64,000 nt of DNA from Sphingomonadaceae bacterium (GTDB taxonomy: Bacteria; Pseudomonadota; Alphaproteobacteria; Sphingomonadales; Sphingomonadaceae). Shown piece by piece: positions 32,111 through 53,418 of the stretch. The translations under genes and the position numbers were made by a program. Location: NCBI GenBank assembly GCA_025056155.1, contig JANWWL010000004.1, positions 372,001 through 436,000 of the forward strand, given 5' to 3'. The notes under the pieces were generated by a model. The model was not told the origin of the DNA and ran no database searches. It saw nothing but the letters and a program-made list of their open reading frames with translations. Each line of letters starts with the position of its first letter. The stretch's first letter is position 1.

Positions 32111-32893
32111 ATGGCACGCTTCACCCTGCCCCCGAACAGTCGGATCGCCGCGAACGGCAAGACCCATCCCGCGCCGCCGGGTGCCAAGCGCACCAAGACC
32201 TTCCGAATCTACCGCTGGTCTCCCGAGTCGGGCGAAAATCCGCGGTTCGACACCTTTGAGATCGACCTCGACGACTGCGGCCCCATGGTCCTCGACGCTC
32301 TCATCAAGATCAAGGGCGAGGTCGACCCGACGCTCACCTTCCGCCGTTCGTGCCGCGAAGGCATCTGCGGCAGCTGCGCCATGAACATCGACGGCACGAA
32401 CACGCTGGCCTGCACCAAGGCGATCGAGGACATCCGCGGCACCGTCACCATCACGCCCTTGCCCCACCTGGAGGTCATCAAGGACCTCGTGCCCGACCTT
32501 CGGCACTTCTACGCCCAATACGCCTCGATCCGGCCATGGCTACAAACCGTGACGCCGGCCCCGCACATGAAGGAGCGGCTGCAGAGCCCCGAAGACCGGG
32601 CCAAGCTCGACGGCCTCTACGAATGCATCCTCTGCGCTTGCTGCTCGACATCCTGCCCCAGCTACTGGTGGAACTCCGACCGCTTCCTGGGGCCGGCCAT
32701 CCTGCTCCAGGCCTACCGGTGGCTGGCCGACAGCCGCGACGAGATGACGGGCGAACGGCTCGACCAGCTGGAGGACCCGTTCCGCCTGTACCGCTGCCAC
32801 ACGATCATGAATTGCGCCACCGTGTGCCCCAAGGGGCTGAACCCGGCCAAGGCGATCGCCGAAATCAAGAAGATGATGCTGGAACGGGCCTAG
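32111..32893 (+). CDS. sdhB: Succinate dehydrogenase iron-sulfur subunit
   Basis: SdhB carries the 2Fe-2S, 4Fe-4S and 3Fe-4S clusters that move electrons from SdhA to quinone. All cysteine groups are present: CREGICGSC with the later Cys of [16 protein letters not shown], and [17 protein letters not shown]. The 260-residue length is normal for alphaproteobacteria. Its 3' end overlaps the convergent lipoprotein gene by 29 bp. Confidence 0.97.
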
Positions 32894-33596
32894 CCGGGTC
32901 CCCCGTCCCCCGGGGCCGGCCACTCCCGCGGGTTGCGGGTGCCACGCGCTCGAACCGGTAGGCCCCCGCCCCCGGCACGCGGAAGGCCAGGCGTCCGTCA
33001 TCCAGGATGCCTTCCTCGCGATAGACGAGCACATCGCCCTTCAGCCGAACGACGGCCCGCAGCGTCATCGCCCGGCCCGAACGGGCCACGATCCGGCACC
33101 CGTCGGGGATGCGGGCCGAAAGGCCCCCCAGGCGGCGGCGCCAGGGCAGGCGGCAGGCCGAGGGATAGCGAGTCACGTCCTTGAGCCCGAGCGATCGGAA
33201 GGCCTCGTCCCCGCTTGTCGCCTCGGCCAGGGTCAATCCGTCCCGCAAGGCATGGAAGTCCATGGTCCAGCTGCCGGGCGCAGGGCCGGGCCGGAACACC
33301 CACAGCCGCTCGCGGCTCACGGGTCCCTGCGGTCCGCCCGCGCGCCACACGAGGTGGACGACCTTGCCGTCCGCCCCGGCCAGCGTCGGGGCGTCGACGA
33401 TCCGGAACCCGGCATGCTGCCGGTCGAGCCACGCGACCCCGACCGCCGGCGGGCGCCGGAGCCGAGCGGGCGCGGCGGCGTGTTGGCGCGCGTTGTCCCA
33501 GAAGCCTTCCAGCGCGCGGGCGGGATCGAGTGGACGTGCCGTCGGTGTGGCGCAGCCGCTGAGCGCGAGGACGGCCGATGCAAGGGCGCACCTCAG
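32865..33596 (-). CDS. CpcT/CpeT-like lipoprotein, apparent CTG start
   Basis: The frame reads as a 243-residue lipoprotein if translation begins at CTG 33596. Residues 1-15 then form a textbook lipoprotein signal ([15 protein letters not shown]) with lipidated Cys15. No ATG, GTG or TTG gives this signal; the first in-frame GTG (33350) would cut off 82 residues including the lipobox. The CTG overlaps the moxR stop as CTGA, matching the ATGA/GTGA/TTGA coupling used elsewhere in the window. The body has the spacing of CpcT/CpeT proteins: [28 protein letters not shown] and a closing GAYRFERV. In cyanobacteria that family attaches bilins; distant non-phycobilin homologues have no known role. Family assignment is by pattern only. 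Confidence 0.6.
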
Positions 33597-34444
33597 GCCC
33601 GTCCGCCCTCCCGCCGCGCCATGAAGGCCAGGCGCTCGAACAGCATCACGTCGGCCTCGTTCTTGAGGAGCGCGCCGTGCAGCGGCGGGATGAGCTTGCG
33701 CGGGTCGCGCTCGCGCAGCGTCTCGACCGGCAGGTCCTCGTGCATCAGGAGCTTGAGCCAGTCGAGGAGCTCCGACGTGGAAGGTTTCTTCTTAAGGCCC
33801 GGCACCTCGCGGATTTCGAAGAAGATGTTGAGCGCCTCGCGCACGAGCTCGCGGGCGATGTCCGGGAAGTGCACGCGCACGATGCGCTCCATCGTCTCGC
33901 GGTCGGGGAACTTGATGTAGTGGAAGAAGCACCGCCTCAGGAACGCGTCGGGCAGCTCCTTCTCGTTGTTTGAGGTGATGACGACGATCGGCCGCTGAGT
34001 GGCGCGGATCGTCTCGCCCGTCTCGTAGACGTGGAATTCCATCCGGTCGAGTTCCTGCAGCAGGTCGTTGGGGAACTCGATGTCGGCCTTGTCGATCTCG
34101 TCGATGAGGAGCACGGGGGTCTCGGGCGACGTGAAGGCCTGCCACAGCTTGCCGGGCCGGATGTAGTTGCGCACGTCGGCCACGCGCGGGTCGCCCAGCT
34201 GGCTGTCGCGCAGACGGCCCACTGCGTCGTATTCGTAGAGGCCCTGGGCCGCCTTGGTGGTCGACTTGATGTGCCATTCGATGAGCGGTGCGCCGAAGGC
34301 TTGGGCGATTTCGCGCGCCAGCACCGTCTTGCCGGTCCCAGGCTCGCCCTTTACGAGCAGCGGCCGCCGCAGGGTGGCGGCGGCGTTCACGGCCACCATC
34401 AAATCCTCGGTGGCGACGTAGGTCTCGGTTCCTTCGAAGCGCAT
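33593..34444 (-). CDS. MoxR family AAA+ ATPase
   Basis: MoxR ATPases act as chaperones that mature or activate partner complexes, usually with a von Willebrand factor A protein. The 283-residue protein has Walker A GEPGTGKT, Walker B LLIDEIDKAD, sensor 1 ITSNNEKELPDAFLRRC and a C-terminal lid (TSELLDWLKLLM). The ATG at 34444 is preceded by GGAGGG at a good distance. The usual downstream VWA/CoxE gene is missing; a CpcT/CpeT-like lipoprotein takes its place. It is divergent from the POT transporter gene. Confidence 0.9.
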   Translation of the reverse strand: MRFEGTETYVATEDLMVAVNAAATLRRPLLVKGEPGTGKTVLAREIAQAFGAPLIEWHIKSTTKAAQGLYEYDAVGRLRDSQLGDPRVADVRNYIRPGKLWQAFTSPETPVLLIDEIDKADIEFPNDLLQELDRMEFHVYETGETIRATQRPIVVITSNNEKELPDAFLRRCFFHYIKFPDRETMERIVRVHFPDIARELVREALNIFFEIREVPGLKKKPSTSELLDWLKLLMHEDLPVETLRERDPRKLIPPLHGALLKNEADVMLFERLAFMARREGGRA

Positions 34445-52501: not shown

Positions 52502-53418
52502 TCAGGCCGCGATGCCGGGTCGACGGCGGCGGGCAGCGGCGCCGACAAGGCCGAAGCCCGGGATCAGCATGGCCCAGGTTTCGGGTTCGGGAATGTAGGC
52601 CACCGGCCAGACATTGCCGGAGGGGAAGCGGATGTCGAGCGTGTGGCCGATGTTGCGGCCCGCGGCGTTCAGGAAGGCGATTTCGAGCACGCGGAAGGTG
52701 GCATCGTATTCCGCGTCTGCGCCTGCGGCCGAGCCGCCGGACACGATGCTGTTGGTCGCGAAGCGCCACACGAAGTCGACGAGCTCAAGGCCCGGATCGA
52801 GCTCGACCGTGAGATCGAAGGTGAAGACCGTGCCGGTCGGCGCGTCGGGGATCGACGTGAACCCGCCCGACACGCCGCGGACCCGGGTCTCGGTTCCAAG
52901 CTGGTGGACTTCGACCCCGTCGGTCCACTGCAGCGTTCGCGTCATCGACCGTTCGTCCACGACTGCGGGGTCGGTCGAAAGCCCGCCGCGATAGACCCCC
53001 ATCTGCATGAAGGCCGCGGTCGAGGCGGTGGCCGGCGGCCGAATGGGGGCCTGGTAGTAGGCCCGCTAGGTGCCCGACATCTGGACCGTGAAACGCGCGA
53101 CAACCACCGGACCAGGAAGCGGCTCGAACAGGATCCTCTCCGTCCATGCGCCGGTGGCCGTCCCGATCGTCACAGCGGTCTGGGAGCCTGAGCCGGCCGC
53201 TGCGGAGCGACCCCGCATCACGCCCTTGGGCTCGGCGCGGGCTTCCGAGATGAAGGCGCTCGCGCTTCCGGCGTAATTGCAAGTGATCGTCACGCCGATG
53301 AGACTTGTCGACTGGCATGCGGGCAAGGCAAGTCCATCGAGCTGCCGCCGACTTGCCCGAAATAGCCGATCGCCGCGGCCGGCTGGGCCCACGCCATCAT
53401 CAGCCCCAGCGCCCCCAT
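52502..53418 (-). pseudogene. Decayed PEPxxWA-CTERM protein gene (frameshift plus in-frame stop)
   Basis: The start at 53418 gives a good signal peptide (MGALGLMMAWAQPAAAIGYF), but the frame closes soon after near 53300. The continuing body (SLIGVTITCNYAGSASAFIS) is in another frame, as if one base were lost around 53330-53345. That body is then cut by a TAG at 53066-53068 (after VQMSGT). The same frame continues beyond (YYQAPIRPPATASTAAFMQ) to a perfect sorting tail, PEPETWAMLIPGFGLVG followed by RRRR. Undamaged, it would be a secreted protein of about 305 residues processed by an exosortase. Two independent lesions favour a real pseudogene, though assembly errors are possible. Confidence 0.72.

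Follow-up and report, generated by a model that had tools for sequence, protein, structure and literature searches.

A probable CTG start for a CpcT-like lipoprotein gene overlapping the moxR stop in a Sphingomonadaceae genome

The 64,000 nt stretch of DNA analysed here (the window) carries on its minus strand an AAA-ATPase gene (33593–34444, likely ATG start at 34444), which was named moxR in the preliminary description and whose product matches Pfam AAA_5 above the cut-off and bpMoxR below it. The gene ends in GCC TGA and is followed, on the same strand, by a frame for a CpeT/CpcT-like lipoprotein (32865–33596), for which a CTG start is proposed from the frame, homology and fold. The CTG (33594–33596) and the upstream TGA stop (33593–33595) have the bases TG in common, giving the overlap CTGA, just as the preliminary description had it. 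An sdhB-like gene converges from the plus strand (32111–32893), and the 3′ ends of the two frames overlap over 29 nt (32865–32893). The name sdhB, like IMPase, MFS, crtC, DegP, infC and HAD below, was assigned by eye, without a family search.

From the CTG, the lipoprotein frame runs for 243 codons without an internal stop or frameshift. Translation of 33596–32865 gives a signal peptide (33552–33596) in which n-region, h-region and lipobox with its cysteine (LALSGC, Cys15) are all present as judged by eye, confirming the signal read earlier. The n-region holds a single Arg, and this weighs against the CTG reading. No ATG, GTG or TTG occurs in the 65 open codons upstream of the CTG, back to a TAA at 33794, so the earlier statement that no standard start is available there stands; the only upstream codons one base away from ATG are ACG 33602 and CTG 33761. 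The first standard start downstream is a GTG (33348–33350), 82 codons into the frame and within the conserved domain. The conserved N-terminus is unexplainable by any standard start in frame. The C of the CTG is the third base of a moxR alanine codon (GCC), where a change is silent, so a GTG would be easily reachable; GTG or ATG is one silent change off, yet neither is present, a point against the CTG reading. To our knowledge, common gene finders accept only ATG, GTG and TTG, and the gene is therefore likely to be misannotated: it would probably be given a start at GTG 33350, without the signal and the first 82 residues, or be missed.

A Shine-Dalgarno-like GGAGG (33607–33611, minus strand) precedes the CTG by 10 nt. 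The duplex that it forms with the assumed anti-SD has a calculated energy of −10.8 kcal/mol, a value reached by 1.5% of 1000 random 17-mers from the same strand, and is the strongest among the 23 CTGA overlaps found within 464 kb of this genome, window included. For each of the other 22, a standard start is available either in frame upstream or no more than 30 codons downstream; the lipoprotein site has neither. Candidates set aside because standard starts were at hand include the CTGA sites at 145492, 266492, 29210, 12386, 100406 and 461642 (equivalent to part B 89642) of contig C3. Within the window, ten other 4-base NTGA overlaps join script-called genes with standard triplets (six GTGA, three ATGA and one TTGA), a count of geometry and not of starts in use; as geometry it bears out the earlier figure of at least nine. 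Both a stop-start overlap and a Shine-Dalgarno match are thus present, as in a coupled pair. The earlier claim that the lipoprotein gene is coupled to moxR is upheld for the overlap geometry; translational coupling itself is putative. Systems of stop-start re-initiation (PMC2268962, as far as its available text extends) are similar in having an overlapping stop and start and a Shine-Dalgarno match inside the upstream gene; they differ in that the start here is a CTG and the coupling is putative. In E. coli, re-initiation is IF2-dependent and is lowered by an excess of IF3, an effect that a Shine-Dalgarno sequence lessens, and the word CUG is absent from the available portion of that paper (PMC2268962).

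The sole Pfam match of the lipoprotein is PF06206 (CpeT/CpcT), at 14.5 bits and so under the gathering score of 21, and a search of NCBIfam with the same protein gave no match. All six aligned sequences, window included, match PF06206, with E-values up to 0.1 (best 5.4e-13). An AlphaFold2 model built from six sequences has a mean pLDDT of 82.8. By Foldseek, the model matches CpcT (4o4o) with an E-value of 4.4e-8 and TM-scores of 0.61/0.73, and E-values to the CpcT/CpeT structures 4o4o and 4o4s and to Arabidopsis CRL (6lix) range from 4.4e-8 to 1.5e-5. The likeness to the CpcT/CpeT phycobiliprotein lyase family lies in the fold and in weak sequence similarity; the difference is that the window protein is a lipoprotein of an alphaproteobacterium, with 13–14% identity to 4o4o, 4o4s and 6lix. 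It is a distant protein of the CpcT fold and is probably lipid-anchored, and the predicted fold does not imply bilin binding. The last 26 codons, with the stop, form a C-terminal extension (32865–32945) that is missing in the three congeneric orthologues, while a more distant homologue (L009) ends in a different, shorter tail. The normal stop has been lost, and the 26-residue tail reaches into the sdhB-like gene; residues 224–243 of the model have a pLDDT below 50.

The genome containing the window (G000) consists of 2.2 Mb in 9 contigs. An orthologue of the lipoprotein is present in four of the five genomes of the genus, and in 4 of 199 genomes sampled across the family, this genome being counted in both cases. 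In the three other carriers the gene also follows moxR on the same strand, making the arrangement common to 4/4, while in the remaining congener (G002) moxR and the neighbouring transporter were found and the lipoprotein gene was not. The start codons of these orthologues vary. In Thermaurantiacus tibetensis (record G004, locus L004), an ATG lies 26 nt past the TAG stop of moxR and places the cysteine at position 17, and at L003 a GTG lies 7 nt past the moxR TAG, giving Cys23. In the congener G001 (L002), the choice is between GTG 1414, immediately ahead of the stop of moxR, and GTG 1483. No convincing start is seen at L002:1414–1521, as GTG 1414 would give a 35-residue signal and GTG 1483 a signal that lacks a basic residue.

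Among homologues further away, that at L009 (44% identical) has an ATG from which the protein begins MRYPLPLTLALLGAC, with Cys15 and the same length as from the CTG, plus an additional ATG one codon earlier. The more distant homologue L005/L010 also has an ATG in the alignment column of the window CTG, and does not keep the cysteine; overall, the lipobox cysteine is retained in four of the five homologues. An alignment of homologous starts, proposed earlier as the check on the CTG, therefore points both ways: an ATG stands at the CTG position in two of five (L009 and L005/L010), while the three congeners start at least two codons away. Orthologues starting elsewhere had been put forward as the evidence that would count against the CTG, and this is partly what was found, with ATG (Cys17), GTG (Cys23) and an ambiguous GTG in the congeners. 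The start zone is common to the homologues and the exact codon is not; within the genus the start codon is not conserved. The short spacer between moxR and the lipoprotein gene of the congeners is missing in the window, and therefore a deletion that removed the old start along with the spacer is likely.

Loss of both the start and the normal stop would also be expected if the gene were in early decay and had ceased to give useful amounts of the lipoprotein. This is the main rival to CTG initiation and we regard it as unlikely. The absence of the gene from congener G002 would fit with decay, as would the dN/dS values, which are 0.34, 0.38 and 0.47 for the window against the three congeners and 0.23, 0.39 and 0.26 among those three (moxR, window against four congeners: 0.11–0.14). 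Against decay, the 243 codons are uninterrupted, and a coding signal spans 33530–32943 in the segmentation. From the cysteine onwards, 57 columns are invariant across the other five sequences, and the window departs from them at 4 (53/57 kept). Moreover, the ratio of dN in the lipoprotein gene to dN in moxR is hardly raised, at 4.0–5.6 for pairs with the window versus 3.2–5.1 among the congeners. The gene looks real and working, although the start of its coding signal at 33530, inside the frame and not at the CTG, counts against the CTG reading.

Translation of the lipoprotein from CTG 33596 is the best reading, and we consider it probable. It draws on sequence, geometry, homology, predicted fold and the absence of standard starts, and the start proposed in the preliminary description is supported by a conserved gene, the lack of any standard alternative, the strong Shine-Dalgarno match at a usable spacing and the ATG codons of L009 and L005/L010. 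In the mechanism we envisage, the CUG would be reached either by ribosomes that have just terminated moxR at CTGA or by 30S subunits bound to the GGAGG within the final codons of moxR. Placement of fMet-tRNA on this codon would yield a 243-residue prelipoprotein of CpcT fold; after export, lipidation at Cys15 would anchor it. Initiation at the CTG would occur as re-initiation with a low yield, and the lipoprotein may have a ligand of hydrophobic or tetrapyrrole-like character. The CTG was probably recruited once the congener-type spacer and the old start were lost.

CTG initiation had been described as rare in bacteria, and the available text of PMC11497404 agrees, giving CUG as 0.024% of bacterial starts and its yield as 0.86% of that of AUG; a low yield of the lipoprotein is probable for this reason. 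According to the portion of PMC4633059 available, a selection in mycobacteria did not enrich CUG with a consensus Shine-Dalgarno sequence. In Ruegeria pomeroyi, another alphaproteobacterium, the starts given by N-terminal peptides were ATG (94%), GTG (5%) and TTG (1%), and 'CTG' does not occur in the part of that proteogenomic text that was accessible (PMC3305630). The rare bacterial CTG starts covered in the available parts of PMC11497404 and PMC5622118 involve the same codon and are likewise inferred from sequence and relatives. The present case differs in that no standard start in the frame could yield the conserved protein, the CTG and a stop codon overlap, and there is a second likely case in the same genome. 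Such a start is rare but known, and the protein that it serves is divergent within a known family.

This second likely CTG start is at position 355889 of contig C3 (plus strand), in an IMPase-like gene, where the codon is preceded by GAGG (−5.9 kcal/mol). A CTGA overlap at C3:355874 lies 15 nt before this CTG and is distinct from it. The gene has a match in all ten genomes searched, with the start readable at nine loci and one cut by a contig end; by ungapped extension, all nine readable homologues have a standard start within 3 codons of the CTG position. Four have it in the same column (L037 ATG, L038 TTG, L039 GTG and L045 ATG), four one codon earlier and one (L043) three codons earlier; congeners carry ATG, TTG and GTG in place of the CTG. 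Alternative starts are a GTG eight codons downstream, without a Shine-Dalgarno match (+1.0 kcal/mol), and a standard start 61 codons upstream, within the preceding gene.

A third CTG start is possible in an MFS-like gene, at position 22802 of C3 (minus strand), in the sequence CTGA. All three readable congeners have TTG or ATG two to four codons earlier (a fourth is cut), the CTG has a weak Shine-Dalgarno match (−3.1), and there are upstream standard starts at distances of 34 and 40 codons.

The IMPase-like gene also bears on whether a base-call error masks an ATG or GTG at 33596. A single substitution, silent in moxR, would yield GTGA or ATGA, but the moxR and lipoprotein frames are otherwise intact and a second likely CTG start exists in the same genome, so that we hold such an error to be improbable. 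Still less probable is a start at the near-cognate ACG 33602, two codons upstream of the CTG. The GGAGG precedes the ACG too (−9.7 kcal/mol), and a 16-residue signal peptide would stand ahead of the cysteine; however, the spacer would be just 4 nt, no homologue except L004 (Cys17, from an ATG) has a matching cysteine distance, and ACG is not known to be a start codon of table 11. A ribosomal frameshift in moxR producing a MoxR-lipoprotein fusion has very little to recommend it: the lipoprotein frame is open 65 codons into moxR, but the signal peptide would be buried and moxR of the three congeners ends in TAG.

In 36 genome triplets, CUG replaced 2 of 61,358 ancestral AUG, 1 of 5,080 GUG and 1 of 2,468 UUG starts, as given in the available part of PMC5622118, and compared with this, two CTG starts within roughly 30% of a small genome would be a high number. 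No rate can be derived from so small and selected a sample, the IMPase-like and MFS-like cases having been drawn from the CTGA list. That this genome, of the genus of T. tibetensis, uses CTG starts repeatedly within the 669 kb examined (in the lipoprotein gene, the IMPase-like gene and perhaps the MFS-like transporter gene) is doubtful; if true, it would imply that discrimination against CUG is weaker in this lineage than in E. coli. Neither the segment screens nor the orthologue comparison supported a general use of CTG starts. The two likely starts provide a concrete, cheap case for testing bacterial tolerance of CUG initiation, and bear on whether a strong Shine-Dalgarno match together with a stop-start overlap aids it.

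A screen of 399 coding segments (464 kb) listed 39, and among those of the 39 whose coding signal begins inside the open frame, only the lipoprotein gene (60 codons) and C3:14975 (89 codons) exceeded 26 codons without a standard start; the other long rows were adjacent genes joined by the script. Sequence context was read for 14 rows, including C3:14975. The second of these is a PEP-CTERM-like fragment (C3:14975–15385, plus strand, L017), with 89 codons lacking an in-frame standard start, and is possibly a frameshifted or decayed gene. Another PEP-CTERM-like protein, in the window at 52502–53062 (minus strand), has a coding signal that opens directly behind a stop codon, with the first ATG 18 codons later, and shows no evident signal peptide. 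A standard start near the boundary was lacking in 34 of 384 segments, and in 49 of 640 in a second segmentation that included contig C1. In most of these a standard start is present downstream of a boundary that was placed too early, leaving the lipoprotein gene, the IMPase-like gene and, in the second segmentation, a crtC-like gene. The comparison genome gave 78 of 739 in the second segmentation, and is no fair control because the model was trained on the genome of the window.

Orthologue-by-orthologue comparison with T. tibetensis gave no further CTG starts, at a sensitivity that is low because the pair screens listed neither the lipoprotein gene nor the MFS-like gene and the T. tibetensis IMPase-like gene is cut by the end of the stretch compared. 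Of 74 pairs with at least 55% identity, 46 had a shared standard start and 28 did not, and these 28 settle nothing (five are blank and several alignments stop short of the start). Among 250 reciprocal best pairs, 219 had at least 50% identity; for the genome of the window 170 agreed, 28 had no reference start and 21 were flagged, and the reverse control gave 158, 27 and 34, respectively. A column comparison of the 250 pairs flagged 8 columns for this genome versus 26 in reverse. The flagged rows were attributed to internal codons or to a wrong choice of reference start, with the exceptions of an HAD-like gene and an ATT in T. tibetensis. The HAD-like gene (C3, stop at 94043) is ambiguous, as its CTG aligns with a GTG but a GTG is also present.

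The initiator tRNA was considered as a possible cause of CTG initiation. Its anticodon stem, in the expected form, is present in G002 and G003 and was not found in G000, G001 or G004; a whole tRNA used as query likewise gave no match, a result to which, by the tool's own warning, no weight attaches. ARAGORN, applied to 31 stretches of G000, gave one tRNA with a CAT anticodon, without an initiator-type stem, and the initiator tRNA of this genome may lie in unassembled rRNA operons.

Three other genes have unusual 5′ ends. In the crtC-like gene (G000:C1, about 140300–140350, plus strand, in L080), the conserved N-terminal motif (PVPPGGY-WWY-DA) is preceded by 40 codons that include no ATG, GTG, TTG or CTG, and the gene overlaps, in another frame, the end of an upstream desaturase-like gene. 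The T. tibetensis gene (G004:C10, about 529500, L090) shows the same startless arrangement, which disfavours a base-call error, and the protein could conceivably be made as a frameshift fusion. In T. tibetensis, a DegP-like protease (G004:C10, about 361.3 kb, plus strand, L101) has a seeming ATT start (IRTLVVSGLVFIAGLAAPALGQA), where the genome of the window has ATG. The infC gene of E. coli is known for its AUU start, and the infC-like gene at G000:C3:29141 (minus strand, L018) may start at an ATC after GGAGAG, with a GTG a few codons on.
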